From Albula goreensis (Eukaryota; Chordata; Actinopteri; Albuliformes; Albulidae), in NCBI GenBank assembly GCA_022829145.1, contig CM040763.1:1213342-1277341 (forward strand): a DNA stretch of 64,000 bases, given 5' to 3'. Shown in pieces: positions 7,914 through 41,225 of the stretch (its first letter is position 1; each line of letters opens with the position of its first letter). A program made the translations under genes and the position numbers. The notes beneath the pieces are model-generated. The model saw only the letters and a program-made list of their open reading frames with translations. It did no database searches and was not told the DNA's origin.

Positions 7914-7931
7914 CTGCAGGGGAGAGAGATA

Positions 7932-18010: not shown

Positions 18011-18125
18011 GGGGCAGGCTGGTTGCCAGGTAAAGGAGTATGGGTTTGGACTTGTCTCACACAGGAGTCAGAAACTCGACTGCAGGCAGGGAGGAGGCTG
18101 GCAAACGCAGAGCTCTGAGAGTCCC

Positions 18126-18580
18126 CAGCCTGAGCCCTGCCCCCCAGCACAGCCCTGCCCCCCCAGCCTGAGCCCTGCCCCCCCCAGCACAGCCCTGCCC
18201 CCCCAGCCTGAGCCCTGCCCCCCCCAGCACAGCCCTGACCCCCCAGCACAGCCCTGCCCCCCAGCCTGAGCCCTGCCCCCCAGCCTGAGCCCTGCCCCCC
18301 AGCACAGCCCTGCCCCGCCAGCCTGAGCCCTGCCCCCAAGCACAGCCCTGCCCCCCAGCCTGAGCCCTGCCCCCCCAGCACAGCCCTGCCCCCCAGCCTG
18401 AGCCCTGCCCCCAAGTACAGCCCTGCCCCCCAGCCTGAGCCCTGCCCCCAGCCTGAGCCCTGCCCCCCAGCACAGCCCTGCCCCCAGCCTGAGCCCTGCC
18501 CCCCCCCAGCACAGCCCTGCCCTCCCCCAGCACAGCCCTGCCCCCCAGCCTGAGCCCTGCCCCCCCAGCCTGAGCCCTGT
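18126..18580. repeat. C-rich minisatellite, about 20-bp unit, about 23 copies
   Basis: Alternating CAGCCTGAGCCCTGCCCCCC and CAGCACAGCCCTGCCCCCC units with four to eight C at the junction. The minus strand therefore has a long series of regularly spaced G-runs. Frames of 150-258 residues on the minus strand are only G/A/L/W-rich translations of the repeat. Confidence 0.95.
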
Positions 18581-19352: not shown

Positions 19353-20059
19353 TCACAGGCGATGACTGCGCTGAGATTAGCAGAGGAAACTTCTGCTCAA
19401 GCGCTCATTGGAGCCATCCTGAGGTTTTGTTTAGCCATATGTTACATTCTGCATTTTGTAAATGATGCTGTACAATAATCCAGTTCAGGAAACTGACACC
19501 GGTGTAATTCAGCGAGTCTTCCCTAGCCTGATTACTCAAACGCCGTCATGTATTTTATTGCATGTTGACACATGCGATGTAGCTGTTCAGCCATACTTCA
19601 CCAACTTCCACGTCTGTTTCAGAGCTCAGCTCCAGGTGGAAACAGGAAGTGACATACAATGGAAACAGGAAGTGAGATATGATGGACAGGCCTTTAGCTC
19701 TAGACCGCTGCTGGAGAGGTTCAGTAGCTGAGCGGTTAGTGGTCACTGTTTACCCCATCCCTCTACCCCTGTGCCCCCTCCAGCCCCACACCCGCCCCCG
19801 CCCCCAGCCGCAAACCCCCTCCACCTCCTACGGTCAGCCTGACAGAAAAAAATTATATAAACATTTAGAAACCACACACCCATTACAAGAACAGTGATAG
19901 AAGTTTTATGTGTATTTTTACAGTAGTCCCTATGGTAGTGATGCGGCGACTGTGACAGCCGGGGTTGGCGGTTTGTCAGTGATGACGAGGAAAGGACAAG
20001 GCTATCAGAGTGGAGGTCAATCTGACCGCTCAGTTTAACGTTTAATGAACGCGCCACGT

Positions 20060-20360
20060 GGTACGAATGCTCAACGGGAACGCCCAGCCCCCAGGTCCAC
20101 GACCACAGGTACGCTTCGGAGGCCACGCTAGCGCTCACACCATCTGCAGCCCGGCCCAGCCCCGCCCCGGCTCCGCCCGCTCTGTTTGCATTCGGGTCTC
20201 CTCCCGCCAGCCCCATGTTTGCGCTGGGTGCCCTGCAAACACCAGCCCTTATCTTATCAGCACTGCGACACACCGGGCCGCCGCTGTGCTTTAATTGCTC
20301 CGGGTCCTGACCAAAGTTCGCAGGCGGGGATCGTTTTACGGTGGCCTGAGAGGGAGGGGG
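20060..20360. promoter_or_regulatory. GC-rich block with GATA, GC-box and homeobox-type motifs
   Basis: A CpG-containing block with clustered GC boxes around 20158-20180 and a double GATA site TTATCTTATC (20249-20258). A TTTAATTGC homeobox-like motif lies near 20290-20298. It differs in composition from its repeat-rich surroundings. It might be an intronic enhancer or alternative promoter of ppara. This is inferred from motifs only. Confidence 0.35.
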
Positions 20361-20409
20361 AGGCACTGCCCGTCTGCAGCCAGGAGACCCAGCGCGCTGG
20401 GCTGTTTAG

Positions 20410-20976
20410 TTACAGTGTAGTATAATGGTTTGGGAGCTGGGCTTGTAGCTCTTGTAGAGGTTACAGTGTAGTATAATGGTTAGGAGCTGGGCTTGTAGCT
20501 CAGAGGTTACAGTGTAGTATAATGGTTAGGGAGCTGGGCTTGTAGCTCAGAGGTTACAGTGTAGTGTAATGGTTAGGGAGCTGGGCTTGTAGCTCAGAGG
20601 TTACAGTGTAGTATAATGGTTAGGAGCTGGGCTTGTAGCTCAGAGGTTACAGTGTAGTATAATGGTTAGGGAGCTGGGCTTGTAGCTCAGAGGTTACAGT
20701 GTAGTATAATGGTTAGGGAGCTGGGCTTGTAGCTCAGAGGTTACAGTGTAGTATAATGGTTAGGGAGCTGGGCTTGTAGCTCAGAGGTTACAGTATAGTA
20801 TAATGGTAAGGGAGCTGGGCTTGTAGCTCATCGGTTACAGTTTAGTACAATGGTTAGGGAGCTGGGCTTGTAGCTCAGAGGTTACAGTGTAGTGTAATGG
20901 TTATGGAGCTGGGCTTGTAGCTCAGAGGTTACAGTGTAGTATAATGGTTATGGAATTTGAGTTTAAGCTCAGAGGT
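20410..20976 (+). repeat. 47-bp minisatellite made of a SINE head, 12 copies
   Basis: About 12 copies of a 47-bp unit containing AGTATAATGGTTAGGGAGCT followed by GGGCTTGTAGCTCAGAGG. The block TAGCTCAGAGG fits the Pol III A box (TRGYNNARNGG). The last unit runs directly into the remainder of a SINE (to about 21150), so the array is an expansion of that element's tRNA-like head. The same unit occurs inverted at 36520-38538. Confidence 0.96.
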
Positions 20977-21150
20977 TGCAAGTTCCATTCCCAAGTGGGG
21001 CACTGTCATTGTACCCCCGAGCACAATACTTAATATTGTACTGTACCTAATATCCAACTGTACAAACAGATCATGTGCATTAAAAAAAAAAAGTAGATTG
21101 CGTGAGTAGCTCTGGGTAAGACCATCTGTTAAGTGCCTGAATGTAAACAC
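20930..21150 (+). mobile_element. V-SINE/HE1-like SINE continuing from the 47-bp array
   Basis: After the last unit (A-box-like AAGCTCAGAGG, 20965-20975) comes a B-box-like AGTTCCATTCC (20981-20991). Then come GGGGCACTGTCATTGTACCC, 'gagcacaatacttaat' and 'taatatccaactgtacaaac', an A-run and the tail GTAGCTCTGGGTAAGACCAT. This is the standard order of a full tRNA-derived fish SINE on the plus strand. Confidence 0.85.
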
Positions 21151-22989
21151 TGGCAGTGTTTGAGGTGAGTCAGGCTCACAGCAACACTGTCAGATTAAAG
21201 TTATTACGTAAAATCAACCCATTGTTATTATTATTTTCATTACACTTTAATCTGCCTTGTACATGCTACATGGCTTTCAGAAAATGGCTACAGAGTTGAT
21301 AGTGAGTGAAGGTGACACACACAGGGACTGAACCACAGCAAAACCTCAGGAATCACAGAGTCGCATCACACAGGGTCATCCCAAGGTCACACTCAACTCT
21401 GACAGCTGGCCAGATCCCCAGAGCCACTGCTTCTGCCCTCTGTAAGCCCAACATAAAGACCAATATAAAAAAAAAACTCGCCTTTAACTCTCTATAACGT
21501 TGTATCACTTCATTTTGTCCATAAAAGACAGTTTGGTTTTTAAAGTACTTGCTTTCAACTCCATGAACGTATTTATTATTATTGTGTCCCTCTTCTTTTC
21601 AGCCATTGTTCTGGAAGGCCCTTTGGCACTCTGCAAACACCAGAGGCAACCATTAAGTGTTAGACATAACAGAGAGCTTTTCAGCAGCTCTGACAGGTAA
21701 CATGCTGTCTGATTTGAAAAGCAGGTGACTCTCTCTCTCTCTCTCTCCCTCTCTTTCTCTCTCTCTCCCTCTCCCTCTCTCGTGTCTCCACCTGTGCCAT
21801 CTCTGTACCTGAGGCCCCGACACAAACACTGTGATTATGGCAGGAAACGGGAATCTGAGTCAGTCACAGACTGTGGCCGGGGGGTTGGGGGGGGTGAGGC
21901 CAAGCAGCAGATATAACAGTCAGGAACGACGAGCTTAAGGCCTGGGGGCTCGCAGCCCTGCCTTGGGTGACACTTCAGAGATACGGATTGCCAGAGTTTG
22001 TGGTTTTACCACAGAACCTCAGACATCCGGAACACCGGGTTTTGTGCTTGCATACAGCAGAACCTCGGAAATGTGGAACTCTGGTCTGCTCTGGGAACAC
22101 GAGAGTGTCAATTAGACCAGGCTCAGCACAGCTCTCCTGAGGTACACCGCACTGGAGTCACTCAACACCTGACCATAACTCTGACATAAACAGGTACAGC
22201 AGCTGATGCACAGATCATTCCAGAAAGGTGGGGTCAGCCTTAGCCTCAGACGTCATTCGCCTCGAACATTTTGAACTTTGAGTAATTTTCAACCATGAAA
22301 TGGAAGACTTCTCTTCTTCATCTCACAACAGAACTAACTGGAATTTTCCACAAGGTCCTGATGTTTTGTTAGCTGGCTAAAAGGCAGTATTACTTTTTCA
22401 GATTTCTTAAATAAATGCAAAATGTAAACGGTCAAACTCTGAAGAAATAAAAACTTGTATAATCAAATTTCAGGTCATGATTGAGTACAGGCCAAAGATG
22501 AGCTGAATATAAGTGAAATATGAATGGGGGGCATGATAATGTTTCCCAAGCAAAGATGACACCCACAAACCTACAGATCAACAGACCAGTGGTGAGAGAC
22601 TCCTCAACGAGCCAGTTTCCCCTTCCCATCATATGCTAACAATGCAATGGCTGTCCATGTCCTCTCAGCTAACACTCCGCTAACAAACAAATGAACTGCA
22701 GAAATATGTGATCCGGGTGAGTCACCCCTTTAAGTGTCTAGCTGGATGAAAATCTTGGGGTTCTGGAGAGCTTCAGCCCAGTTTTAAAATCACAGGACTT
22801 GACCTTTGAGGGGAAAAAGTGCTGGTTGAATCCGGGACAGCGTTTACCGCAAAAGCAAAATGGATGTGGTGTGTGGCAATGTGGGTGGAGCGAGTCATGT
22901 GACTCAGCTGCGCTGTCTGCACATGTTTACAGCTGGGCCCGACGGCCGCCAGCAGCTCAGACGGCCTCGCTCAAACAATGACAGGGATG

Positions 22990-23027
<38 letters not shown>

Positions 23028-24482
23028 TCTCTGCTTTTTCCATGATCCTTTGCAAGAACTTGGCTCAGAATCCCAGCAAATTTCCAAATCGGTCCACGCG
23101 CTCGGGTTCAGACTCACATTACCCAATTGTGCTGGAAGGGGCCCCTAACCTGGGCCAAAACGGGGCTGAGCTGTGGTTACCTGCCCAGCTGGGGGCATCG
23201 CTCTTGGGATACTGGGAGAGGGCTTTAACATGGTTCTGTCTCCAGCCCATATCTGCTTTAACAGCCCTGTGTTTCTGTCTCCAGGTAGATCAGCTGCTCA
23301 CTGCCATGCGGGCCTTCAGGTCTCTATGGCTCTTTCTCTCTTCCCCTGGTGACAGAATGCTTCGACATTAACATATTTACAGTTTTTTTTTCCAACCATA
23401 ATTTTTTTGCTTCAATTATAAGACATTTAATGACAAGAGTGGGCCATACAGCCCAAGGTACTTGTATCATAATTTTCAAACTAGAAGGACAACACTAAAT
23501 GAGAAACGTTTGAAAAACATAAAACCATAAGGAGTTTCAGAAATTCAAAAGAGAAAAAACAAGAGAAATTCTGGAGAGGGTTTCTTTTCTGTGCCAAAAA
23601 CAACATGCATCACTTCAGTGAAAGAGAAGAAAAACCCCAGAAAACTGAGCGGCGTCACTCAGCCCCTGTGTTAATGTGAGTGCTGAGTGGATTTGCTGAC
23701 ACGGGAAAAAACTGCTTTCTTGTTGCTTTTATTGAAATATTTATTTTCTTCTTGTGTGAGCTGACAGAGGAACAAGCTGTGCAGATGCTTAGGGAGAGTT
23801 TGAACAGTTCATGGAACAATTTGTGAAACTCAAAAATGAGCCATCATTTCTGTGAGAGCGCTCAGTCCGTGCGAGGGCTCGGTCACACTTCTGTAGGATT
23901 CTAAACCCTTTCTGAAGGAATGATCTGGAACTTCTTGGACGGCTCACGCCTCTGGCACCAGGCGCGACCCACACCTCTGCCCTGACCTCTCCTCAGTCTG
24001 CTGGTTCAGAACCTCACAGCTGCTCTGGGACCGTAAAGCAGCTGTGGAATCACTCTGCATTTAGCAGAAACCCCGTGTTCCACCTCCAGCTTCTCACCAC
24101 TGATCCAGCGTCATTCATCTCTCCACCAGCACTGCAAGCAAAAAGCTCATTTTCCCTGATATTGCCTGATCAATCTATCTATGCGGACAAAACTGTGCAG
24201 TCTTAACATAAACCTAATCTTACTTATTTAAAAGTAAATAATCTTACTGTTGGTACAAAATCCTCTAACCAGTACAAACCAGTCTAAATGCTGGCCAATC
24301 AGCAGTAGTCTCACAGGACAGACCGGGCCTGTGATTTCCTCTGGGGAAGGTGATGACTGACAGTCCACCCACACTGGTGAGCTGCGGCGGGGACTTCCTA
24401 AACCACAGTCCCGCGTGGTGAGCCAGCCGCCAGCCAAATGTCAGCAGGACGAAAGCTCCCAGACTGCCCAACACAGTCCACG
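20977..24482. other. Non-coding region, SINE body to the 32-bp array
   Basis: After the SINE I see CT microsatellites at 21729-21783 and 22997-23024 and otherwise unremarkable sequence. No exon, promoter or conserved domain could be recognised on either strand. Confidence 0.5.
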
Positions 24483-25387
24483 GCTTCAGCACTGTCCCAT
24501 TCTCCAAACCCTCAGCTTCAGCACCGTCTCATCACCCAAACCCTTAGCTTCAGCACCGTCTCATCCCCCAAACCCTCAGCTTCAGCAACGTCTCATTCCC
24601 CAAACCCTCAGCTTCAGCGCCGTCTCATCCCCCAAACCCTCAGCTTCAGCGCCGTCTCATCCCCCAAACCCTCAGCTTCAGCGCCGTCTCATTCCCCAAA
24701 CCCTCAGCTTCAGCACCGTCTCATTCCCCAAACCCTCAGCTTCAGCGCCGTCTCATTCCCCAAACCCTCAGCTTCAGCGCCGTCTCATTCCCCAAACCCT
24801 CAGCTTCAGCGCCGTCTCATCCCCAAACCCTCAGCTTCAGCGCCGCCTCATCCCCCAAACCCTCAGCTTCAGCGCCGTCTCATTCCCCAAACCCTCAGCT
24901 TCAGCACCGTCTCATTCCCCAAACCCTCAGCTTCAGCACCGTCTCATTCCCCAAACCCTCAGCTTCAGCACCGTCTCATCCCCCAAACCCTCAGCTTCAG
25001 CACCGTGTCATCCCCCAAACCATTAGCTTCAGCGCAGTCTCATCCCCCAAACCCTCAGCTTCAGCACCGTCTCATTCCCCAAACCATCAGCTTCAGCGCC
25101 ATCTCATCCCCCAAACCCTCAGCTTCAGCGCCGTCTCATTCCCCAAACCCTCAGCTTCAGCGCCGTCTCATTCCCCAAACCCTCAGCTTCAGCGCCGTCT
25201 CATCCCCCAAACCCTCAGCTTCAGCACCGTCTCATTCCCCAAACCATCAGCTTCAGCGACATCTCATCCCCCAAACCATCAGCTTCAGCGACATCTCATC
25301 CCCCAAACCATCAGCTTCAGCAACATCTCATCCCCCAAACCCTCAGCTTCAGCGCCGTCTCATCCCCCAAACCCTCAGCTTCAGCAG
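24483..25387. repeat. Minisatellite, 32-bp unit, about 28 copies
   Basis: Units of CCAAACCCTCAGCTTCAGCG followed by CCGTCTCATYCC. Variants exchange GCGCC/GCACC/GCGAC and CCTCAG/CATCAG. Decayed copies continue to about 25510. The period of 32 with no stop gives a 355-residue frame that cycles through the three translations of the unit. It is not a gene. Confidence 0.96.
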
Positions 25388-26089
25388 ACTTTTTCAGTAC
25401 ATACCCACAATTTCAAATCAGCTTGTGTCCTCCCTTAGAATGTGTCCTCCCAAACTTCCTTTCAGCTTCAGCGCTCCCTCCTTCCCTAATCCCAGCCAGC
25501 TTTAGCACGGCCTTTATCAATATACCTTCCCCAAAATCCATCCGGTTTCAGAGCCGTCTCTTTCACATAATTTCCGCTCAGCTTCTTTCTCCAAAACAAA
25601 CACAGCAGCAGTGCCTCATCCGCTTGCACCCCAAAGCTGCTGCTGAGGACTCTGGCCGGGGTGCCTCCAGCTTCAGCCCCCAGAGCTGTGCTCCAGGCCT
25701 GCAGGAGCAGCAGGCACTCTTAAGCAAGAAATGTATGCGATGGAGGAGGCGCAGAGAGGGGTCACTCCGGGATAGGGAGCCCATACTATATCTGGCAGGC
25801 TTTGCTAGCCGAGCGGAGCGGAGCTGCGGGTCCTGTCGGGCGGGGGTTTGTGGGGGGGTGAACTGGCGGAGCTCCAGGAGCTCAGGCACTTTGGGGGCAG
25901 TTGAGGTGGGGGGGAATGTCTGCACAGCTTTGTCCTCAGCGTTCAGGTCACGAGCCGCTGTTTCCTGTGAGGGCTTCTGCTAGCTGGTTACTGCACGATC
26001 ACAACCATAAGGAGAAAGAAAACAAGAAATGGCACAAAAAAAGAAAAAAAAAATAGTATCTCTCCTTTTGGGTAATATATCACAAATAG

Positions 26090-26270
26090 CCTGTGTGTGT
26101 GTGTGTGTGTGTGTGTGTGACTGCTTGTGTGTGTGAGTGTGTGTGTGTGTGACTGCTTGTGTGTGAGAGTGTGTGTGTGTGTGTGACTGCTTGTGTGTGA
26201 GAGTGTGTGTGTGTGAGAGTGTGTGTGCGTGTGTGTGTGTGTGTGAGAGACTGTGTGTGTGTGTGCGTGT

Positions 26271-26309
<39 letters not shown>

Positions 26310-26372
26310 TGTGTGTGCGTTTGTGTGAGAGACTGTGTGTGTGTGTGAGTGTGTGTGTGTGTGTGAGTATGG
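26090..26372. repeat. TG microsatellite, long and interrupted
   Basis: About 280 bases of TG repeats with GA and GC interruptions, including repeated 'gactgcttgtgtgtgagagt' blocks. Confidence 0.95.
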
Positions 26373-26839
26373 GGTCTATGCAGAAAAACAGCAGCATGAG
26401 TCTAAGGGGGACCCCAGCTCCAGGTACAGTCTGTGTTTTTATTTATTTTGCCTCAGTTTAACCAGGCAGGTCAGCTGAGGACCGCCTCCTCATTCCCGGG
26501 CTGGGTCATTACCCACAGCGGCGGGCTGGAGGAGCAGTGCAAGGGGCCGAGCTGGGCTGGTGATGTGAGGTGAAGCTGTGAGAGAGAGGGGAGGTTCTGG
26601 GGAAGGTTCAGCTTCTCTGGGGAAGCGCAGATGTGTGGGTGCTGTTACTCTCTCTGTCCAGCAGCTGTGTGACAGAGGGGCTCTGTGCTGAGCCAATGAG
26701 CCAAACCCGCCAACCCCCCGGGACACCTCCGCCCCCAAAACCAGCTGTCATGTTCACACAGCAGGGGGGGGAGGCATGGGGCAGGAGTAAAGCCCACAAC
26801 TTCAGTGCACTCCTACTGTAAAAGCCCAAACATTTTAAT

Positions 26840-27030
26840 ACCGTGCGTCTCCACAAGATTTCGGTTACATTGCCAGCTGGTTGTAAGATGATGTTACGAC
26901 GGGAACGTTCGTTGAACGTTTTACGGTTTCAAATCGGTGTCACGGTCATGGAAAGAATGTTCCAGGAATGTCGCGTACAAACTTACTGGCAACATCCCAT
27001 CATAGTTATCAATTAGTCATGAAAGAAACA
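26840..27030. mobile_element. Dispersed repeat copy A with GAACGTTC-type motifs
   Basis: Shares the block order GGTTACATTGCCAGCTGGTT, then a GTTC-rich segment (GGGAACGTTCGTTGAACGTT), then 'aatgttccaggaatgtcgcg' with a second stretch at 28885-29060. The two are diverged copies of one element, probably a non-autonomous transposon. Its ends and family are unclear. Confidence 0.45.
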
Positions 27031-27129
27031 TCATGGAAGATAGATTTTCAGAATTTTCTGGATGGAAGGGAGCCCTGCACTTTGGAGAGTTTAAGCCTCA
27101 GTGCAGCTCCACGCTCCTAACACGGAGTC

Positions 27130-27235
27130 TCCATCTTTAAACGCTTACAGTTAGGAATTTAGCAGGCACCCTTATCCAAAGCAACTGACACAAGATCCAC
27201 TCATGTTTTTAGCTGGAGTACCTTGCTACAGCAAC
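27130..27235 (-). mobile_element. 3' part of a V-SINE/HE1-like SINE, reverse orientation
   Basis: TTTAGCAGGCACCCTTATCC, then 'aaagcaactga', is the reverse complement of the SINE 3' end. 'gctggagtaccttgctacag' further right is a degenerate body block. Confidence 0.6.
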
Positions 27236-27934
27236 ACAGAGTCTACGGTTCCAGATGATGATACATAAAGTGGAAATTCACAAAAAGGGGTGTGACCAAG
27301 GACGATGACAGTGTCTGTATGGTTGTACAGCACTAAAACGTCTACTTTTGATAACCTGTGTACAGATTCTGTTCCAGAACCAAAACTTTCACGGCCCCAG
27401 ACATGCAGCTGAGGCCTGAGTGACATCACACAGGTCCCCATGGAAACAAAGCTGACTGACAGGAGGAAGGCAGGAGCTGAAGATCTGGTGGGTCTACAGG
27501 CTCTTTGGCTCCAGCACTCTTGCAGTGGTGTGGAACCGTGGGAGGTGAGAGACTGAGAAACAGCTCAGCAGAGTCATGTGATCCAACACAGTCCTGCAGT
27601 GATGGCTTTTCCCTTCCTCTTTCTTCACCTCCTTTAAACTCCAGATATATCCCCCTCCCTCTTTCCTCCTCACACAGTATAAATTGGCCAGAGAAGGACT
27701 TTGGCTCTGCAGAAAAAGGGGAAGGAGGGGGCTATCTATCTGTTTTCCTGGTCTAATTGCGTAGGGGTATAGAGGGGAAGGTTGTTGGAGGCACAGTATA
27801 TATTACACCAGTGTTTTCTTTGACTGCTAACCCCACAGCTGAGGTGGGAAGTATCAGCCAACATTCACAGATTAACGTTAGTCGCCATGCCAGTGCAGGA
27901 GAATAGCGATCCCTAAACCTGATCCTAGAGTGCC

Positions 27935-28010
27935 CCAGTGCATGCTGGTCCTGGAGAACTCCCAGTGCATGCTGGTCCTGGAGAACTCCCAGTGCATGCT
28001 GGTTTTGGAG
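27935..28010. repeat. 27-bp unit, three tandem copies
   Basis: Three copies of CCAGTGCATGCTGGTCCTGG followed by AGAACTC, the last with TTTTGG instead of TCCTGG. Confidence 0.9.
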
Positions 28011-28494
28011 GCTGTTAAATGTTACTTTGTACCATGAAAATCAGTTCCTTACACAATGCGGCATTAAGAGGCTAAACCGTTGCTCTATCGAAATTAGAAG
28101 TGTTCAATTAAAACCACAGAGCAGCTCTTTGTACTCCAGGAAGTGAAGTTAAGGTTGGGAGGAAAGTGGCGCACCAGGACCTGCCGCATGGACTGCTGGG
28201 CCATGGTACAGGAGAAAGGTCGTTGACCCCTCTGTCTGCTCTTGGCAGAAGCAATGCTGTCATTGATGTGTGAATGCATGCTGAGGCAGCAAAACTGTAT
28301 GACACACACACATGTCTCTTACATCACTTCCTGTTTTTAGCCCACAGTGTACAGAGGCCCAGGCAAACCACAGACATCTCTCTCTGGGAGCATCTCAGAC
28401 GGCAGACACAGAACATCTTGTTCTCTCGCACCCACAGCCCTTTGGGACCGCCACAGACCAGCATGCAGAACGAGTGCAAGAGCACAAACCCAGT

Positions 28495-28712
28495 TAAGAT
28501 GAAACTCCGTCACTATTCAGCCGTCGCACAATGGTTAAAGACCAGGATGTTTGCCTGGCATGTAACTCATCGCTTGCAGGTGGTATAGAGCAACTGTGCT
28601 TAACTGCTCTAGTAAAGCTCCTCCTCTATAAACTGATGGTGTGTAAAAATGTCATCTCTAAACTGCTCTGGACAAGAGTGTCTGCTGAATATCTTAAACA
28701 TAAAGTGCAAGC
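28495..28712 (+). mobile_element. V-SINE/HE1-like SINE, plus orientation
   Basis: A degenerate tRNA-like head near 28530 (CACAATGGTTAAAGACCAGG) is followed by a body with 'gagcaactgtgcttaactgc' and the tail CTGCTCTGGACAAGAGTGTC, TGCTGAAT. Confidence 0.65.
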
Positions 28713-28879
28713 TCAGCTAAAGTTAAAGTTCCCAGAACACTGGAGCACACTGACTGCAGGAAAACCCCCCAAGAACTGTGGGCCAACCACAGATCTTACA
28801 GACCGAGCAGATGTTCTCAGCGCTGAACATTTCGGTCTCCTTCACTGCAGAAGCTCAGGCATTCCAATACGACACATCC

Positions 28880-29070
28880 TCTGTGCGTTTTAGTTACATT
28901 CCCATTTGGTTGCTATGACAAGAATGTTCCCCTAACATTGGGTGAATGTTCCATGGTTCCAAACAAGTTCTGTCAGACTCACGGAGGCTCGTTCCAGGCA
29001 AGCCACACAACACCCCCCTGGCAATCTTCCCTGATGGTTATCACCAATGTTACATACCAAAACATTTACG
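28880..29070. mobile_element. Dispersed repeat copy B with GTTCC-type motifs
   Basis: Shares AGTTACATTCCCATTTGGTT and a following 'gaatgttcc' and 'gaatgttccatggttccaaa' segment with copy A at 26840-27030. The orientation is the same. Confidence 0.45.
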
Positions 29071-29824
29071 GACATTCTGAATCAAAGTGCTGAAACAGCA
29101 GATTTGTCTGAATCGCCAACATTCCTGATAAAATCAACACAAATGACCATCAAAAATCCGAATCCTTTTTAACTGGAACAAAGAAAATAAATTATCTTAG
29201 CCCATTCCTGCAAAGTGGCTACACAGATAAGGAAACTTCCAGGGGAATCCAGGAAACTGGATTAATAGAACAATTGCTGGGAATGTTTACTCTATTTTCC
29301 TTAACTTTCCCATGATCTCCTGAAAAACCGTCAGGAGGGAACACAGCCACAGTGGGAAGCTGTCCCGCAGGTATGGCACAAACAGAGAGAGACAGAGATA
29401 CTGCACACTCATAATTACACACTAGAGAACACCGAGAGGCCCTGGAAGACACTCGTAAAAACATGGACCTGTCAGATCAAATATCTCTCTCTTTCTCTCT
29501 CTGCAAAAGGCAACACCCAGCTGCAGTACTGAAGGAAAAATCTGTTTTTTCAAATGTTATTCCTGTTTTCTCAAGATTTGTGTATGTTTGTGCCAAATCA
29601 CTGTTACGTGAACTCTTCCAAAACTCTTCCACCCCTTCCACTGTGCAGCCTGGGGGTCATCTCTTACAGTCTCTACACCCTTGCTCCTGCATGGCAAACA
29701 CAGTCTGCACTGACACACTCAACACCAGATCACTGCGACCAACACATAAGAACAGGGCTGTGCCAAATTCAGCTCCCCGTCAGCGCCACACAGCCATAAC
29801 ATCCAGCCATAACTAAGGTATGAC

Positions 29825-30005
29825 AGGAAACTGGTCCAGAGGCCGGAGATTCCATTCAGGCCTGGGACTGTGCTGCCGTGCCCTTAAACGAGGTGCCTCC
29901 TCCAACGTGCTTCAGTAAATATCCATCCAGCTGTATAACTGGATCATGTGTAAAAATGTAAACTACATAAGAGCTCTGAGTGCCTGCCTAATGCCCAAAA
30001 TGTAA
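29825..30005 (+). mobile_element. V-SINE/HE1-like SINE, plus orientation
   Basis: Body blocks 'ctgccgtgcccttaaacgag', 'gcttcagtaaatatccatcc' and AGCTGTATAACTGGATCATG are followed by a tail AGAGCTCTGAGTGCCTGCCT, 'aatgcccaaaatgtaaa'. The order is that of the SINE body on the plus strand. Confidence 0.75.
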
Positions 30006-30225
30006 ACATGTCAACATTCCCGCTGTCCTGCCGGCTCAGCAGAAAGCATGGCCCGTCTCCCATGGCGCAGTGAAGCTGGATTAACCTGTGAGAGGTGGAT
30101 TAGACCAAGCTCAGTCAATGGGGCAGGATTTAGCAGCGCACGGCAGGTGGACCGCATCCTCTCAAGAGAGGGGCCATCTGTTCAACAGTCCAGCGCTTAC
30201 CCTGGAAAATCCGGTCCCGACCAAA

Positions 30226-30238
30226 AGGTCAAAGGGCA
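30226..30238 (+). promoter_or_regulatory. DR1-type nuclear-receptor site
   Basis: AGGTCAAAGGGCA: a perfect AGGTCA half-site, an A spacer and an AGGGCA half-site differing by one base. This fits the element bound by PPAR/RXR and HNF4. It lies in the presumed ppara 5' intron. Confidence 0.4.
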
Positions 30239-31536
30239 TCAGACACTTAGCTGATAGAGCTGTGTTTGGATGAAGGCGTATTATCATTATCTTAGGCCAC
30301 TGCTTACAGTGAGTCAGAGGGTGACACTGGAGCCCACATAATCACTCAGGGGTTTAACTGGGACCGGGGGGTGGGGGGTCTAAATCGGGCCCACTGAAGA
30401 ACTTTCGGAGCCTGATTAACCAGGAAATACTGATTTTTAGACCCTAACTGTCCAAACCAGGCAGAGAGGTTTGCTCGATTTTTCTGTCGACTTTTCTGTC
30501 AATCCCACGATGTCCCATGCTAGCCCTTTACTCGGCTTCATTGAAAATGAAAGAGAAAACATCACTCTGCAAAATGCCGGCAGATATGCACTGTAACCAG
30601 AGGCACAGAGCCTGTCACATGCACAAACATCAACAGCTCTGCGTCTCTATGACAGCTGAGACTGAGGGAGAACGCTCAACACTTAGGCCAAACAGGCAAC
30701 TAGTGACCGTAGAGAAGTTCACAGCAAAACACATTAAAACTTTTGAATTTCACAGAGGATGTTTGTGACCAAATTCTGTCAACCCTTCATGTGACTTCAG
30801 CTTGTTTAAACTTCAATGTTTTTCCTTATTTTCCAAAAAAAATGTGTCTTTTGAGGTTTTTTTTTTTTTTAAATAAAGAGTTGATATGTATTGTCCATAA
30901 ATAAATTTTTTCCATTTGGGGAGCTGCAGGTGTGAAGGAGCTGAGCTGGTTGCTCTGTGAAAGACAATACTGTAGGTTACGTTATATGAAGCTGCAGGAA
31001 TTCTGTGGGGCCAGGCACTAATGAAACAGTGCCTTTATTTACAGTTCTGGGGCTCGCGGTCAGAACCCGCTGTATCCATGGCAACGGGCCTTCACAGAGA
31101 CACTCAGCGACATGTCTCTCCTATTTAGTTCTTTTGGAAACTTCGTACAAGCAGGACGTGGTCGCTGCCAGGTGTGTGAAATGCCCAAAGCCTTCAGTGT
31201 GAAAGGCAAAGACGTCTGTGTCTGTTTCAAAACATTGTGGCAAACGCTGGAGTTACCTGCCTGGCAGGAGCATGGGAGATGGCGGTCCCGAAAGCGTGTG
31301 TTAGCTGTTGGGCGGGGATGCGTCCTAAGAGAGGGGCTCTGGAGAAATTACAGCCCCACAGGTGAGTTAGCCCCATTCCGTTGTAAATCTGGATAAATTT
31401 TAAGCCGCACAGGTGAGTTAGCACCATTCCACTGTAAAGTCACAACAGGTTAAAACTCACTGCAGCAAGTCTCCAATGAAAACCGGTACTAAAACCTGAC
31501 AATCCAGTTTTACCAAAAAAAAAAAAAGCCTTATTC

Positions 31537-31875
31537 TGTTCCCTCCCTCTCTCCCTCCCTACCATCTCTGTCTTTCTTCCTTTCCCTCTCTTTCTCTCCT
31601 TTCTTAGACTCTGTCTCTTTTTTCTGTCTGTCATTTTTTTTTTTTATTGAGTCCCGTGCATTACTGGGAGCCCCTATGTTTCTGTAACGCTGTTATTTCT
31701 GTCTCCTTCAGGGTTTCAATAAAAGGATATCAAAGATCTCTTGTTCCATTTCTGTTTTTCATTTTCTCCCTCTCTATTCATCTTCTCCCTCCTCTTCTCT
31801 TTCTCTCTCTCCTGGTCTTTCTCACTCTTCCTTCTGTCCTTCACACCCTCTCTCCCTCTCTTTCTCTCATCAGTT
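31537..31875. repeat. Pyrimidine-rich low-complexity tracts
   Basis: Two CT-rich stretches (31537-31640 and 31755-31875) made of CTCT, TTCC and TCCC runs, separated by ordinary sequence. Confidence 0.8.
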
Positions 31876-32090
31876 GACATGCAGGAGGTTTCAGATTGCT
31901 CTTTTAATCACATCTTGAGAGTGCTGAAATGAGATCCTGAAACTGCTCTGAAATAAAGGTGATGAGCGTCTCCCCCAGTGAAGAAAAAGCTCTCTGGATT
32001 AGGATTAATAACCGCACACGTGACGCACAGGGCCAAAGTCCAAACGCTGAGCCGACCTTTGGACCCCTGTGTGAAGCACGCTGGATGGAG

Positions 32091-33220
32091 AGCAGCTCTC
32101 TGAGACACGGAGCAGCTCTCTGAGACACGGAGCAGCTCTCTGAGATATGGAGCAGCTCTCTGAGACACAGAGCAGCTCTCTGAGACACGGAGCAGCTCTC
32201 TGAGACATGGAGCAGCTCTCTGAGACACAGAGCAGCTCTCTGAGACACGGAGCAGCTCTCTGAGACACAGAGCAGCTCTCTTAGATATAGGGCAGCTCTC
32301 TGAGATATAGGGCAGCTCTCTGAGACACGGAGCAGCTCTCTGAGATACGGGGTAGCTCTCTGAGATACGGGGTAGCTCTCTTAGATATGGAGCAGCTCTC
32401 TTAGATATGGAGCAGCTCTCTGAGACACGGAGCAGCTCTCTGAGACATGGAGCAGCTCTCTGAGACACGGAGCAGCTCTCTGAGACACGGAGCAGCTCTC
32501 TGAGATACGGAGCAGCTCTCTGAGACACGGAGCAGCTCTCTGAGATATAGGGCAGCTCTCTAAGACACGGAGCAGCTCTCTGAGATATAGGGCAGCTCTC
32601 TGAGACACGGAGCAGCTCTCTGAGATATAGGGCAGCTCTCTGAGACACGGAGCAGCTCTCTGAGATATAGGGCAGCTCTCTGAGATATGGAGCAGCTCTC
32701 TGAAACACGGAGCAGCTCTCTGAGATATAGGGCAGCTCTCTGAGATATGGAGCTCTCTGAGATATGGAGCAGCTCTCTGAGACACAGAGCAGCTCTCTGA
32801 GATATAGGGCAGCTCTCTAAGACACGGAGCAGCTCTCTGAGATATAGGGCAGCTCTCTGAGACACGGAGCAGCTCTCTGAGATATAGGGCAGCTCTCTGA
32901 GACACGGAGCAGCTCTCTGAGACACGGAGCAGCTCTCTGAGATATAGGGCAGCTCTCTGAGACATGGAGCAGCTCTCTGAGACACGGAGCAGCTCTCTGA
33001 GATATGGAGCAGCTCTCTGAGATATAGGGCAGCTCTCTGAGACATGGAGCAGCTCTCTGAGATATGGAGCAGCTCTCTGAGATATAGGGCAGCTCTCTGA
33101 GACATGGAGCAGCTCTCTGAGATATGGAGCAGCTCTCTGAGATACGGAGCAGCTCTCTGAGACACTGAGCAGCTCTCTGAGATATAGGGCAGCTCTCTAA
33201 GACACGGAGCAGCTCTCTGA
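32091..33220. repeat. Minisatellite, 20-bp unit, about 56 copies
   Basis: AGCAGCTCTCTGAGACACGG units of 20 bp, with a constant CAGCTCTCTGAGA and a variable segment (CACGG, TATAGG, TATGG, CATGG or CACAG). Because the unit lacks stops on the minus strand, four overlapping frames of up to 266 residues appear. They repeat the same 20 residues and are not genes. Confidence 0.97.
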
Positions 33221-33373
33221 CAGGCAAACAGCTGCAGAACAGACAGAAGCCGCTGTTTACCCTGCCAATATCACCGAGCTGTCTGGACAAAGTTCTGCTC
33301 AAAACTGCTGATAACCCCAAAAAATATAGGTCTCAGAACACACGAACACACACACACACACATACACACACAC

Positions 33374-33406
<33 letters not shown>

Positions 33407-34380
33407 GAGGTTTTATTCTGTTAGAGGACTGCAGTTCTTATGCAGAAGATTACAGATCTGCAGAGCTGTGCAGTCGTGGTGCGAGAGCACTGCAGTTCTT
33501 ATGCAGCATGCTACACATGCTAAGTGCTGCGATTTACCTGTTTTAATATTGAGTGGCAAATGAAGCCATGAGTTCATAAAGAATAGCCAGTAAACGTTGT
33601 TCCAGACAGTACCTCGGTGTGACGGCATCTCTGAGTGTCTGGGGTGCTGTTCTGAAAAGATTTGTACATTTGGAAAACTAGTTATGCAGTTGTGCAGGGG
33701 TGTTGATTTGAATGACAAGGAGGCTGTAACCGTGTCTACCACAACCCCCCCCATCATGCTATGGGTCACCTGGCCACACTCAGGTCAGGTACAGCCTCGT
33801 TTTGAATTAAAATACCGAAGGAAGCTGCCGGGCTGTCTTTGGTCTTAAGACATGAAACTGCGGTCCTCATTCACTGTGGTCATTATCTAAAGAGCGGAGG
33901 CTGTTACCCACCGCGTCCTGGCCGAGCTCCAACAAAAACTCTCCCTCAGCATCTGGTCATCTAATCACCTGTATCTGATTGGCCACAGAATCCTTCGCCT
34001 TCTGAGAACGGAGAGAATTGAGCTCTTGATCGAACAAACAGGTTTGATAAAGATCGAACAGCCTAAACAAGAGAGATAACACAGACATTGGGGGGGGCAG
34101 GATTAGGGTTAGGTACAGAGACACAGGCAGTCTAGCTGAGCGCCCAGGGGGTGAACGCCCCCCACCCCGGGGACACCTGTGATGGTGTCGCGGAAACAAC
34201 AGGTGGGTGAGCTCAGAGCGTGCCTGTTGGCTGCGTTTCCTTCCTGCGGATCAAAGCGCAGACGTTCAGGGGACTCTGGGGCTCTGATGGAGGTTTTACT
34301 GTGATTCAGCGCTGGGCAGCTGGGGCAGGACGGGGGGGAGGGGCACTGCTAACCCATATACACACACACATATGGGAACT

Positions 34381-34469
<89 letters not shown>

Positions 34470-36366
34470 GGGAACTCGCACACACACACATGCACATACA
34501 TATGCATACATGCACACCCATGTGCATGCACACACACACAAACTTATGCATGCACATCCATGTACAGACACACACACACACATGCATGCACACACATGCA
34601 CGCACGCACGCACACACACAGGTGTACACACATGGCCATATGGGTACAGATAAAGAGAGACGAGGAGGTCAGTTGTGTCGAACAGGAACTCTGTTGGTCA
34701 TGTTGCTGTTCCTAATCACAGAGAACCTCTCCATCTTTGTTCCTCATCTTTATGGCACACTATTGCATCACACTTCAACCCAAAACACCGCAGGCCAATC
34801 AGCAGCACTGCGAAAACAAGAGCCTCGTTCCTCCAAGACAACATGCTGCTTTATTATTCCATAAACTGCAATCAAACGCAAAGATGGCCAGACTGGACAT
34901 ACGGCTTTTATTGACAATGGCAACAAAATGCACATTTTTCTTCTTTTTTTTAAAATTGGTGACTCAACTGTAAACAAATATTAAACAGACAAATATTGGG
35001 TGTATTTCATAACAATATGACTTAAACAGACCAGTGGACCGTCCTTGAACACGCCAAGAGCTCCACGTAGCAATAATCAGGGAAATATGGACAATCGGTT
35101 AACCCAGCTGTGGGGGGGGGGGGGTTACATAACCCTGAACTCACAGAGCAGGAGGTTATGGCCCAGTTATTCAACACCAAACCCATCTGAGCATGCTGTA
35201 TCCAACGTCTAGGCTTATCTTCACATCTGTCTCCAGTGTTGCATAAGGCGTTTTATGACCCTGGAGAAGGCCGAAGCACGGGCCTACAGTCACCTGAGTT
35301 ACACATCTAGAAACTCAGGTTCCTTTGTTTGAGGGATCAGGGAAATAACAGGCTTTCCATGACTCCAGAGAAGAGTTTATCCCAAACCAGGGTGTTCCCA
35401 GCTCCGCTGCTCAGGAGCCACAGGGTCTGCCGGCTTTAGCTTTCACCGTTAAACTAACAAGTTTACACCCAAGAAACCGGGTGAGGTGAGTTTACAGTGG
35501 AATCTGCTGCAGTTATGTATCAAATACACACTGAGTAACGGCAGAGACCAGGCAGGCCTGTGAGAACGCCTCAGTGAGGGCTGGAGGCCGAATCACACAG
35601 ATTTCCCAAAACGGAGAACTCCGCTGAATGCCGGTCTTCCGTGTTTGTGCTGGCACTGTACTGTGAAACACTCCACTCACATCCTGCCAGATCGTCAGCT
35701 GATGGACACAGTGGACTCATCACTCACATGAGATTGACAGCTCCATGTGGACAGCAGATCTCATGGTGTGACGGTAAGACTGTGTTAGACTGCGAGAGAT
35801 TGAAGCATCAGTTCTTTTAAAGCTCAGATTTGTGTGATATCTGTGTCAGCACCAATCAGAATGTCATCATCGCAGCCATGGAACTATTGAATTTCACTCG
35901 TGTGAAATTGATGGCACACAGTCTTTAAGATAAACATGCTGATGTTCACTCAGGATACTGCGCTCTGTTTCCACCGCTGTTCTGTGAGCGTGGAGCACTG
36001 AGCCAGCACCCTTGCATCACTTTCACTGCACCCGAAGCCAAAGTCCAGGGGGACACAGACGTTTCAAAAATCATTTTCTGTCAATGTTTCTGTCTGTGTC
36101 CACATCAGAGTGCTAAACTACTCTTGCTGGACTCAAGAGCTGCACAGCTCTAACAATGAAATCATTATGTGCTTAACAAAGTGCAATGTTTCATCTTCAC
36201 TCTTTATTCGTGTTTTATAAAAGTTATACAGATATCTATTAGTTATTTACTTAAAATATTCATGTGGTACGAGTGGTTATCTGTGGAAATGTACCTAAAC
36301 ATCACATCTGTACGTGGATTTGGAAAACAAGGAGCCGATTGTGAAGACACAGACATTTAAGGGAAT
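33221..36366. other. Non-coding region around 33-36 kb
   Basis: Contains CA then GA microsatellites at 33343-33412, a duplicated GACTGCAGTTCTTATGCAG-like block (33427 and 33490) and CA repeats. From 34960 to 36360 the sequence is unremarkable. No exon was recognised. Confidence 0.5.
34357..34622. repeat. CA microsatellite flanked by duplicated TATGGGAACTCGC
   Basis: A nearly perfect CA tract (34385-34466) with TATGGGAACTCGC on both sides, then ACAT/GCAC-rich sequence to 34622. The duplicated flank suggests that the CA tract expanded inside a repeated unit. Confidence 0.93.
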
Positions 36367-36503
36367 TTAAGCACAGAAATGTAGGTGCATGAAGCATAGA
36401 CATTTAAGATACATATTTAACTTCACATGCCAAATGAAGTTAAACATATATGCCATATGTATCTTTGCTAAATTACTGTATGTCCCTACATTCCTGTGCT
36501 TAA
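36367..36503. mobile_element. Palindromic MITE-like element
   Basis: The 24-base ends (36367-36390 and 36480-36503) are inverted copies matching at 21 positions, starting TTAAGCACAG. Inner blocks AGATACATATTTAACTTCA and TGAAGTTAAACATAT/ATGTATCT also pair, so most of the 137 bases can fold into a hairpin. There is no reading frame. It lies 16 bases from the large 47-bp array. Confidence 0.6.
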
Positions 36504-36519
36504 TGAGTTTAAATGCTGA

Positions 36520-38538
36520 AACCATTACACTACACTGTAACCTCTGAGCTACAAGCCCAGCTCCCTAACCATTATACTACACTGTAACCTCTGAGCTACA
36601 AGCCCAGCTCCCTAACCATTATACTACACTGTAACCTCTGAGCTACAAGCCCAGCTCCCTAACCATTACACTACACTGTAACCTCTGAGCTACAAGCCCA
36701 GCTCCTAACCATTACACTACACTGTAACCTCTGAGCTACAAGCCCAGCTCCTAACCATTACACTACACTGTAACCTCTGAGCTACAAGCCCAGCTCCCTA
36801 ACCATTACACTACACTGTAACCTCTGAGCTACAAGCCCAGCTCCCTAACCATTATACTACACTGTAACCTCTGAGCTACAAGCCCAGCTCCTAACCATTA
36901 CACTACACTGTAACCTCTGAGCTACAAGCCCAGCTCCTAACCATTATACTACACTGTAACCTCTGAGCTACAAGCCCAGCTCCTAACCATTACACTACAC
37001 TGTAACCTCTGAGCTACAAGCCCAGCTCCTAACCATTATACTACACTGTAACCTCTGAGCTACAAGCCCAGCTCCCTAACCATTATACTACACTGTAACC
37101 TCTGAGCTACAAGCCCAGCTCCCTAACCATTACACTACACTGTAACCTCTGAGCTACAAGCCCAGCTCCTAACCATTACACTACACTGTAACCTCTGAGC
37201 TACAAGCCCAGCTCCTAACCATTACACTACACTGTAACCTCTGAGCTACAAGCCCAGCTCCTAACCATTATACTACAGTGTAACCTCTGAGCTACAAGCC
37301 CAGCTCCGTAACCATTATACTACACTGTAACCTCTGAGCTACAAGCCCAGCTCCCTAACCATTACACTACACTGTAACCTCTGAGCTACAAGCCCAGCTC
37401 CCTAACCATTACACTACACTGTAACCTCTGAGCTACAAGCCCAGCTCCCTAACCATTACACTACACTGTAACCTCTGAGCTACAAGCCCAGCTCCCTAAC
37501 CATTATACTACACTGTAACCTCTGAGCTACAAGCCCAGCTCCTAACCATTATACTACACTGTAACCTCTGAGCTACAAGCCCAGCTCCCTAATCATTACA
37601 CTACACTGTAACCTCTGAGCTACAAGCCCAGCTCCTAATCATTACACTACACTGTAACCTCTGAGCTACAAGCCCAGCTCCCTAACCATTACACTACACT
37701 GTAACCTCTGAGCTACAAGCCCAGCTCCCTAACCATTACACTACACTGTAACCTCTGAGCTACAAGCCCAGCTCCCTAACCATTATACTACACTGTAACC
37801 TCTGAGCTACAAGCCCAGCTCCCTAACCATTACACTACACTGTAACCTCTGAGCTACAAGCCCAGCTCCCTAACCATTATACTACACTGTAACCTCTGAG
37901 CTACAAGCCCAGCTCCTAACCATTACACTACACTGTAACCTCTGAGCTACAAGCCCAGCTCCCTAACCATTATACTACACTGTACCCTCTGAGCTACAAG
38001 CCCAGCTCCCTAACCATTATACTACACTGTAACCTCTGAGCTACAAGCCCAGCTCCCTAACCACTACACTACACTGTAACCTCTGAGCTACAAGCCCAGC
38101 TCCCTAACCATTATACTACACTGTAACCTCTGAGCTACAAGCCCAGCTCCTAACCATTACACTACACTGTAACCTCTGAGCTACAAGCCCAGCTCCCTAA
38201 CCATTATACTACACTGTAACCTCTGAGCTACAAGCCCAGCTCCCTAACCATTATACTACACTGTAACCTCTGAGCTACAAGCCCAGCTCCCTAACCATTA
38301 TACTACACTGTAACCTCTGAGCTACAAGCCCAGCTCCCTAACCATTATACAACACTGTAACCTCTGAGCTACAAGCCCAGCTCCCTAACCATTATACTAC
38401 ACTGTAACCTCTGAGCTACAAGCCCAGCTCCCTAACCATTACACTACACTGTAACCTCTGAGCTACAAGCCCAGCTCCCTAACCATTATACTACACTGTA
38501 ACCATTGAGCTACAAGCCCAGCTCCCTAACCATTACAC
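36520..38538 (-). repeat. 47-bp minisatellite (SINE-head unit), inverted, about 43 copies
   Basis: On the plus strand it reads CTCTGAGCTACAAGCCCAGC then TCCCTAACCATTATACTACA and CTGTAAC. This is the reverse complement of the unit at 20410-20976. Units are 46 or 47 bp depending on CTCC or CTCCC, and C/T at ATTAYACT varies between units. No SINE 3' body is seen next to it; its left neighbour is the MITE-like hairpin. Confidence 0.97.
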
Positions 38539-40018
38539 AACTAACATTTCTACATGTAGGAAAAACACCTTGCTGTACATACCACACTTCTGCTGCTTCA
38601 GTCACATGGAGTGCATTAGTTACACTATGCATGCACATATTGAAAATATTCTACTGCCACATTTCGACTTTAAAGCTACAAGCGACTGTAAAGATCGAAT
38701 GGGTGAAAGAAATGCACAAACTCCAGATTTTTTTTGAGCGCTTGGAACATTTGGAACCATTTTTCCAAAGTATGACAATCAGGGATAAACTACAGGTACC
38801 GCCAAAACCTGAGGCCAGCAGATTCTTCAAACCAAAACTCAAACTGAAGGAAAGCATATCTGCAAAACCTGGCCCATTTTTGGGCAGGATGGGCACAGAA
38901 CACACAGAATGCACTCGCATGACCTGCTGATGTGGTTAACACGTTGGTCAAAACGCTGAGGCAAATGAATCTACAACACTCTGCAGGAGGTGGCTGGTTT
39001 TGCACCTAGTCTAGACTCCAGACACTCAACCTTTGATAGAACATCTGGATAGCTTTATTATCTCTTTGGGTGTAGGCTTCCTGCAATCTGATTGGTTCCA
39101 GCAGATTGTAGATGGCAATTTTGGTTACTTCTTGTGATTTAGCATCTCATACACCCACGATTATGCAGTTTGTCAGAAATCGTATCTGACCATTGGCGTA
39201 TTTAAAAGAGACATCCATGGAGGCAGGGCAGAGCTAATCCATGAAAGAGTGACATGCTAGTTAGTCATGATATCATAGTTATGATGTCACATTTTTTCAG
39301 ACTGACTACAGACACAAGTTTGATGCCCCAATCTTCAGTTCTCTCCTTTGTCTGTTACGTGTCCCTTTCACACTCTGCAAACATCAAACCCCACATGTGA
39401 TAAGACCGGTCTAAATCAACCTTCCTCTAACTTAAAAGGTTTTGTTTCTGCAAACTCTCTGAAGTGCTTGAGACAAGAGGACCAAAAAATACCATGTCTA
39501 ATAAATGGGGTGCCCTCCCCCTTTCCCCCACGGTAAAGTTTCAGCTGGTAAGCTTCGGTCTAAGTGTGTCAGTCTCCAGCAATGAGAGTCAGTGTATCTG
39601 CTGGAATTTGGAGTGTTTCAGTACTTAAGTGCTTAATTTAAATCACTGATTGGCTAAAGCGTCCACACACATTGTTCCCAGGGCCTGCACTGGCTGCGGG
39701 CTAAAAGGAAACCAGAAAAACCTGCAGACACTGCAGCCGTGCAGGACAGAAGCTGTAGACATGGATTTGGGAAGACACCCACAGTGCTGTTGGGTTTACA
39801 CCCCTCCATCGTGGAGCATGATTCATTTTACGTAAATCACAGGCGAGGGAAAAACAAAAACAAAGAAGGTTGTTAGCCATGCTGACCTTAAACGATCGAT
39901 ACGCCCCTGGGTAGAAACAAGAAGCTCTTTAGGCAAGTCATGACCAAACCGTTTTTGGCTGCGGGGAAAACGTGCGACGCAACGCCTTCCTCCAAAATCC
40001 CCGTTGACCCAGACTCAC

Positions 40019-40110
40019 CCTGCCTCGCTAACACCGATATAATGTTACCGATGGGCGGCGCGCCTGCGCACAAGACATGCATGCCCTGCGCGTACGATCT
40101 ATTTGTGAAC
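40019..40110 (-). promoter_or_regulatory. Candidate promoter and untranslated first exon of ppara (a)
   Basis: A CpG-rich patch with GGGCGGCGCGCC (40053-40064) and, on the minus strand, TGCGCAGGCGC resembling an NRF1 site. A strong minus-strand donor GCAGG|GTGAGT lies at 40019/40018. It is on the strand of ppara, about 29 kb upstream of its start exon, which starts with an acceptor and therefore needs an upstream exon. The link to ppara is inferred. Confidence 0.4.
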
Positions 40111-40925
40111 CTCTAAGTGAAACAGTGTATATAACTACACAACCAACACCTTCTAGGCGTTTTACGTAATATCTCCTCAACGTTGAAGCTGGCTCTTACA
40201 CTTAGGTTGAATCGCCAAGGGTTAAGAGTGTGAAACGCATGCTTTCACACATATGCAAATGTATTAGCCTACATGTGCAGCAATTTGTGAATATCCACAA
40301 GCATTTCGGTACAGATGTGGGCTAAGCATGAATTTTATCGAAATTAATTGTTCGATATTTTAAAGGATAATAGAAGAGTTTACACGTTGAAGAAATTTGG
40401 ATATGCATTCAACTAAAATGTGCAAATGTAGTAATTAATAGCTGACCCAAATTCAGACAAACAGCGGGAAATGCAATAGCTCAAATATGACTGGCAGCAG
40501 CTACACAATCAGTACGATCGATAGTAGCAGCTATGAATAGCTCAGCGGATACGCAGACGTGCTGAACACAGAATCTCTGCGACAATACAGGGAATGAGAA
40601 TAGGTTTAACAGCTGTGGATATGCTAACGTTACTGCAGCGGGTGGTATTGACTGATAGTCACATCTTAGTTACAGTGAGTCCATACTTATTAAGATAACA
40701 ATTGAGCAAACATTTAAAATTAGTCAGGCTATCTGTTTTGTAGCTCAGTGATTCAACAGTACTTCGCCTGTTTGAAGACGTTCCCCAATTCTAAATGTCT
40801 CAAAAATACAATCTCGAGACATGAATTTGTCGTTGCTCGAGCCCCTTGTGATCTGTAAAGTTTATGTGAATGAAATCAAAATTAGCGAATGCAATAACCT
40901 TGATTTTAAAAATGTGGGTCACTAC

Positions 40926-41225
40926 CTTAGAGGGGGCTGCCCAGTTCGACGCCGCCATATCGTCCAGATTCAGCTGCAGCGCTGTCAACGTCCAAATCTG
41001 CAAGAACGAGGAGGAGGAAAAACGCGAGTCGCTCGCATACGGCCTTGTTTGTCTGAACAGCAGTGCCGCTGTCAAAATCCTGCACTGAGAACAGCCAGCA
41101 AGCGCTCCCTGCCTGTCGGAAATGACGACATGACTGACAGCTGGAGGGATGAGTGCACACACACCTACTGACACACCTATGGTTTCAGCGAATAGGAGCA
41201 CGGCGCCTCTCTCTGGCGGAGGACG
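40926..41225 (-). promoter_or_regulatory. Candidate promoter and first exon of ppara (b)
   Basis: A CpG-rich patch ending on the minus strand at TCTAAG|GTAGTG (donor at 40925). An ATG in good context (GATATGG, 40958) opens MAASNWAAPSK up to the donor. Joined directly to the ppara start exon this frame would stop after three more codons, so it would be a 14-codon upstream frame. It could equally be the start of another gene. Confidence 0.4.

Follow-up and report, generated by a model that had tools for sequence, protein, structure and literature searches.

The 64,000-nucleotide stretch of Albula goreensis DNA analysed here (contig CM040763.1, positions 1,213,342 to 1,277,341; hereafter the window) contains two arrays of the same 47-bp tandem unit in opposite orientation. 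Both arrays are very probably members of one subtelomeric satellite family derived from a short interspersed nuclear element (SINE). The alignments identify the 47-bp unit as the first 46-47 nt of this SINE, which appears to be old, dispersed and tRNA-like. A SINE-derived satellite of the kind described in squamate reptiles, found outside the squamates and built from a different SINE, is what is new here.

Two arrays of one unit in the window

The arrays and the SINE sequence attached to the first of them have the following window coordinates:

20409-20977, plus strand: array 1, with about 12 units close to 47 bp in length; its final unit, a diverged SINE head (20931-20977), continues into a SINE body
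20978-21135, plus strand: SINE body of the parent type, attached to array 1 (nhmmer with a hidden Markov model (HMM) of 24 dispersed copies, E = 2.8e-24, 79.5 bits, flank positions 11-168)
36520-38538, minus strand: array 2, with about 43 units, each 46-47 bp in length

Tandem Repeats Finder reports array 1 at 20409-20954 (47-bp unit, 11.6 copies, 95% matches) and array 2 at 36520-38538 (47-bp unit, 43.2 copies, 97% matches), with consensus units that are reverse complements of each other. Cyclic alignment moves the right edge of array 1 to 20977. By anchored dissection, array 1 consists of 12 units of 46-51 bp, and array 2 of 43 anchors of 46-47 bp, the final one entering the flank. The two methods bear out the original prediction of about 12 and about 43 copies of a 47-bp unit in opposite orientation, and the predicted spacing of 15.5 kb was recovered as well (20977 to 36520).

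When array 1 is aligned on the plus strand with array 2 on the minus strand, 523 of 537 aligned bases are identical, with 6 gap positions; the best ungapped stretch has 405 identities in 417 bp, and exact matches extend over up to 172 bp. A chance likeness is excluded. Among 1041 inverted-repeat pairs in the window, the 25 longest are array 1/array 2 pairings in every case. It had also been claimed that the arrays can pair over hundreds of base pairs, and this is upheld by the predicted minus-strand RNA co-fold of 560 nt of array 2 with array 1 (-1055.6 kcal/mol, 517 intermolecular pairs). In this model the pairing arms could reach about 520 bp.

The unit corresponds to the head of a dispersed SINE

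Past its right end, array 1 runs on into GGTTGCAAGTTCCATTCCC, followed by sequence that includes an A-rich stretch and a tail. When 20930-21095 was used to search the genome, the best 40 of 187 candidate loci contained 45 matches, located on many contigs and with 71-91% identity, the window itself excepted. The SINE consensus derived from 24 aligned array-free copies begins CAGTGTAGTATAATGG, and the array unit matches the head of this consensus at 44 of 46 bases. The heads of the dispersed copies themselves (n = 24) are 57-89% like their consensus. From the match of the unit to the head consensus it follows that the unit spans the first bases of the SINE (CAGTG) to just short of the B-box region. 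The unit appears to contain an A-box-like motif and to end ahead of the B box; we take TAGTATAATGG to be the A-box-like and AGTTCCATTCC to be the B-box-like motif, by comparison with the consensus sequences of the two boxes. The B-box-like motif of the SINE of array 1 is presumably at 20981-20991, judged in the same way.

ARAGORN identified the SINE head as tRNA-Thr (TGT), though only when the threshold was relaxed, and the head sequences GGCAGTG and CACTGCC are complementary, resembling an acceptor stem. ARAGORN applied to the window detected no tRNA. The tail of the SINE of array 1 may be UnaL2-like, as suggested by a match of a sister copy (L021, one of six copies searched) to the UnaL2 3' element, which is weak with 25 bits against a gathering score of 55 and an E-value of 0.75.

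Where one unit meets the next, GGTTA immediately precedes CAGTGTAG, while at the equivalent place in the SINE GGTTG precedes CAGGTTC. The CAG common to both sites suggests a duplication by microhomology. The unit and the head consensus differ at two positions, both A to G (GAGC...GCTC in the unit, GAAC...ACTC in the head consensus). These changes help to make GAGC and GCTC complementary, and could provide each unit with a stronger small hairpin.

Genomic distribution of the satellite family

The window is located on a contig of 25.9 Mb (C23), about 1.2 Mb away from the contig end, in a genome of 932 Mb. The exact 39-mer of the unit junction is found at 3568 places in this genome (1756 + 1812), and its reversed control at none. 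Extrapolation from the 252 junction 39-mers present in 49.9 kb of retrieved arrays gives an estimate of about 15,000 units, or about 0.7 Mb, for the genome. A 201-bp array query produced 147 matches in the best 40 of 433 candidates, which we grouped into 36 loci on 18 contigs; the sequence of 20 of the 36 loci was retrieved.

The distance to a contig end is at most 2.5 Mb for 30 of the 36 array loci and at most 5 Mb for 35, compared to expected shares of about 13% and 27%, calculated for 25 large contigs. Nearness to an end refers here to the distance to the contig end, with interpolated lengths for C8, C11, C13 and C19, and says nothing on telomere repeats at that end. Near-consensus bodies of the parent SINE were located much less often near ends, with 1 of 46 within 2.5 Mb and 6 of 46 within 5 Mb; these 46 are places with at most three mismatches to a 37-base body pattern, and none of them is exact. 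On the 72.1-Mb contig C1, clusters of the junction 39-mer up to 69.58 Mb comprise 5 in 0-1.5 Mb, 1 at 7.8 Mb and 11 in 64.9-69.58 Mb, corresponding to 3.3 and 2.3 clusters per Mb at the two ends. No clear rule of orientation toward the nearest end could be identified for the array loci (23 of 36, p = 0.13) or for the clusters on C1 (7 of 17). Some arrays of the 47-bp unit are considerably longer than those of the window, such as L054 (2081-10000, about 168 units or more, the array running up to the edge of the retrieved sequence) and L044 (2167-8187, about 128 units).

Uniform units and diverged SINE bodies

The mean identity of units is 0.969 within arrays (26 arrays) and 0.965 between arrays on different contigs (308 pairs), and 711 of 980 units represent one of four variants, defined by two sites with two states each. 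This uniformity bears on the possibility that the arrays are ordinary local minisatellites, each born by replication slippage from the SINE of its own locus and with no exchange among loci. Such an origin would account for the 13 of 28 arrays that continue into a SINE body, and it agrees with the richness of the window in other minisatellites, the tested one of which (43697-45545, 46 copies of 40 bp, used as a control) is private to the window, with 40 of 40 genome matches. However, local birth from heads as diverged as those of the dispersed copies would yield private units, while most units of the sampled arrays share the four variants, and the identity between arrays is near that within arrays. 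On these two grounds independent local births are rejected, and we regard the explanation as highly improbable.

Of 28 flanks on the 3' side of arrays, 13 carry a SINE body immediately next to the array and on its strand, and of 26 flanks on the 5' side none does; one antisense SINE is present 5' of the array at L041. The array-attached bodies are only about 0.60 alike (70 pairs). When both parts of the same copy are compared in 13 arrays, the terminal head is 0.93 like the unit and the body 0.70 like the consensus (paired test, p = 0.001), the alignment of head and body being unsure for L046, L053 and L055, in which an earlier head was perhaps taken (L055 scores 0.60). With an alternative cut, applied to 11 arrays, the terminal head scores 0.87 and the internal units 0.99. 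Array 1 itself is a weak example of the contrast, with 0.83 for the head and 0.80 for the body. Judged from these alignments, most terminal heads are less diverged than the bodies attached to them. A young head and an older body in one copy fit a homogenisation or invasion of heads, but not local birth or recent joint retrotransposition.

In the latter case the tandem-head SINE would itself be mobile, the array and the body being retrotransposed as one, as in composite SINE-VNTR elements. In favour of joint mobility, every body found lies 3' of its array and on the strand of the array, and four body-bearing arrays (L011, L026, L042 and L046) begin at the 5' end of the SINE or at most 3 nt from it. 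On the other hand, the attached bodies are too little alike, the divergence of head and body differs sharply inside one copy, and no plain second head is present in the 24 dispersed copies, although a permissive alignment passes one head in five of them. Joint retrotransposition of array and body as a recent event is rejected by the diversity of the bodies and the contrast between head and body, and joint mobility as a whole seems unlikely. An ancient joint retrotransposition with homogenisation afterwards may have taken place.

Proposed spread of the units

We propose that the SINE head was initially duplicated across the CAG common to the SINE 5' end and the sequence adjacent to the B box. 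The array would then have grown by slippage or unequal exchange, and subtelomeric recombination (gene conversion, ectopic exchange or reinsertion of array DNA) would have spread and homogenised the units, partly into SINE copies already sitting near chromosome ends. Spread into such pre-existing SINEs would join young heads to old bodies. Tentatively, this can be extended to a satellite that colonises its own parent. Young units would invade the heads of old, dead SINEs near chromosome ends by homology-directed repair, overwrite them as far as the homology reaches, which is to the B box, and expand there. The SINEs would serve as landing pads, and exchange between ends would keep the approximately 15,000 units near-uniform. 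This extended version is possible, but we consider it less secure than the assignment of both arrays to one SINE-derived family.

Several observations weigh against the SINE origin of the family or its proposed spread. With default settings, ARAGORN detected no tRNA in the head consensus, and a search of the window with Rfam at the gathering score gave nothing. The permissive alignment exceeds one head (more than 60 nt) in 5 of 24 dispersed copies, the longest reaching 123 nt (L017). In 15 of 28 arrays no SINE body was detected at the HMM threshold, including array 2, which has none within 260 bp of either flank, and therefore arrays are not tied to SINEs. The share of body-bearing arrays falls to 8 of 22 when array 1 and the loci found with the SINE query, which inflate the count, are left out. 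Circle integration was not clearly indicated by the start and end phases of the body-less arrays, as judged by eye. The dispersed copies (n = 24), which serve as a comparison for the contrast of head and body in array-bearing copies, score 0.80 for the head and 0.83 for the body, but this body value is raised because these copies were picked by similarity to the SINE of the window and scored against their own consensus. Finally, a second SINE sample is less depleted near ends, with 3 of 31 array-free loci no more than 2.5 Mb and 11 no more than 5 Mb away; these 31 are the 40 loci of the SINE query minus array 1 and 8 loci with arrays, where loci that were not retrieved were judged by their match rows alone. 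The end preference of arrays relative to the SINE holds, but is weaker with this second sample.

The inverted pair and the PPARA-like gene

The original prediction was conditional on a start of ppara near 40-41 kb, with which both arrays would be part of one transcript. The features relevant to this condition are:

980-1123, minus strand: PPARA-like exon for the second zinc finger (tblastn with a human PPARA query, 87.5% identity, E = 7.9e-23)
7756-7917, minus strand: PPARA-like exon, first zinc finger (same query, 64% identity, E = 3.9e-16)
10755-10919, minus strand: PPARA-like first coding exon with start codon (same query, 40% identity, E = 1.1e-5)
19701-20500, no strand: CpG-rich stretch next to array 1, candidate promoter region
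39701-41400, no strand: CpG-rich stretches to the right of array 2 (39701-40200 and 40801-41400), the presumed start region in the original prediction

Further CpG-rich stretches are found at 10.6-11.1 kb and 54.6-58.7 kb. Since the PPARA-like exons lie downstream of both arrays on the minus strand, a transcript that starts to the right of 38.5 kb would contain both arrays, whereas with a start at 10.6-11.1 or 19.7-20.5 kb both would be outside the transcript. A query with the PPARA ligand-binding domain gave no match on C23 at E-values up to 10, with all 64 candidates scored. Matches on another contig (C25) cover the whole PPARA protein, including the whole ligand-binding-domain query, while on C23 only the three exons listed above were found. 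From this sequence comparison, the PPARA-like gene on C23 may be a truncated or decaying duplicate; alternatively, its ligand-binding exons may be unassembled or too diverged. The original interpretation is thus supported in part: the arrays can pair and the minus-strand exons lie downstream of both, but besides 39.7-41.4 kb there are CpG-rich candidates for a start elsewhere, and a ligand-binding exon was not found on C23.

The same evidence applies to the suggestion that the inverted pair is a source of long nuclear double-stranded RNA, in which one ppara primary transcript would form a stem of about 500 bp, subject to ADAR editing or cutting into small RNAs. The very strong predicted pairing (517 pairs), the downstream coding exons on the minus strand and the possible start at 39.7-41.4 kb favour this role. 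It is opposed by the rival CpG-rich stretches at 10.6-11.1 and 19.7-20.5 kb, by the lack of a ligand-binding exon match on C23 for this PPARA-like copy, and by the frequency of arrays near chromosome ends, from which some inverted neighbours are to be expected. We consider such a role unlikely. The arrays would pair as RNA if present in one transcript, but no function is needed to explain them, and a locus-specific device is rejected because the unit is genome-wide.

The inverted placement is probably due to chance. The opposite orientation probably follows from the random orientation of array loci, and would be a neutral by-product. At densities of 2.7-3.6 arrays per Mb, 2-3% of arrays are expected to have an oppositely oriented neighbour no more than 16 kb away on a given side, and 6% at 8 arrays per Mb. 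There is no clear excess of opposite neighbours among array loci within 200 kb (4 opposite and 2 same, with the window pair included and L056 left out), nor a clear bias among neighbours within 300 kb on C1 (4 opposite and 6 same). With about 15,000 units in the genome, further inverted pairs should exist, and L056 (C3, 2.266-2.269 Mb) holds one, with arrays of the 47-bp unit at 3134-3482 (plus strand) and 3970-5912 (minus strand), about 0.5 kb apart.

Comparison with known satellites

The closest known system is formed by the SINE-derived satellites (sSats) of squamates (Vassetzky et al. 2023; PMC10702118), whose authors were unsure whether they are restricted to squamates. As in the sSats, the tandem unit comes from part of a SINE of the same genome, which here is putatively tRNA-derived like that of the sSats, the loci prefer subtelomeric positions while the parent SINE is dispersed, and units are homogeneous both within and between loci. 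A longer end unit that reaches the SINE terminus, as in sSats, is present in array 1 but not in array 2 (PMC10702118). The sSat features tested here were all found, and the family is therefore filed as a member of the SINE-derived satellite kind. It differs in the SINE, in the genome, and in the make-up of the unit, which includes the A-box part of the head but not the B box; the main snake sSat unit is 67 nt long and includes the B box and part of the body (PMC10702118).

The presence of SINE sequence in a fish satellite has precedents, as complex satellites with SINE-derived parts are reported for Harttia armoured catfish (PMC11955569). Those units are complex and multi-part, with intervening sequence, whereas the short unit described here consists entirely of a single piece of one SINE head. 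A tRNA-like, or supposedly tRNA-like, part is also described for tandem families of amphibians, i.e. Hydromantes Hy/Pol III, Xenopus satellite 1/OAX, Rana/polIII and Cynops PolIII/TAN (PMC10702118, PMC9659126). The amphibian units measure about 200-360 nt where stated and their link to SINEs is unproven according to PMC10702118, while the SINE behind the present unit is identified in the same genome. A minisatellite that arose inside a SINE (1998; via PMC9659126) has the unit (GGCAGA)n, unlike the 47-bp half-tRNA-like unit near chromosome ends described here. The fish satellite CharSat01-52 is likewise short (52 bp by its name) and forms subtelomeric clusters in one species, but the main text of its report does not contain the words tRNA or SINE (PMC8210747). 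Among the open-access papers listed, as judged by titles and abstract openings, no fish satellite was found with a unit that equals a single SINE piece.

An unrelated fish genome thus shows the anatomy of the squamate sSats, while both the SINE and the part of its head that forms the unit are different. This suggests that the route from SINE to subtelomeric satellite is a recurrent one. As young uniform units and old diverged bodies occur in one copy, the mechanism of spread can be tested at the boundary of head and body, across loci and in relatives. The real question raised by the satellite family is the uniformity of its units across chromosomes; nothing about the inverted pair itself points to a special device.

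Other minisatellites in the window

Apart from the control array at 43697-45545, the window contains unrelated minisatellites at 1984-2382, 3409-3854, 4492-5231, 14057-15403, 18123-18579, 24483-25386, 32090-33220 and 60733-61284, all with units of about 18-45 bp. Such richness in minisatellites might be expected near a chromosome end.

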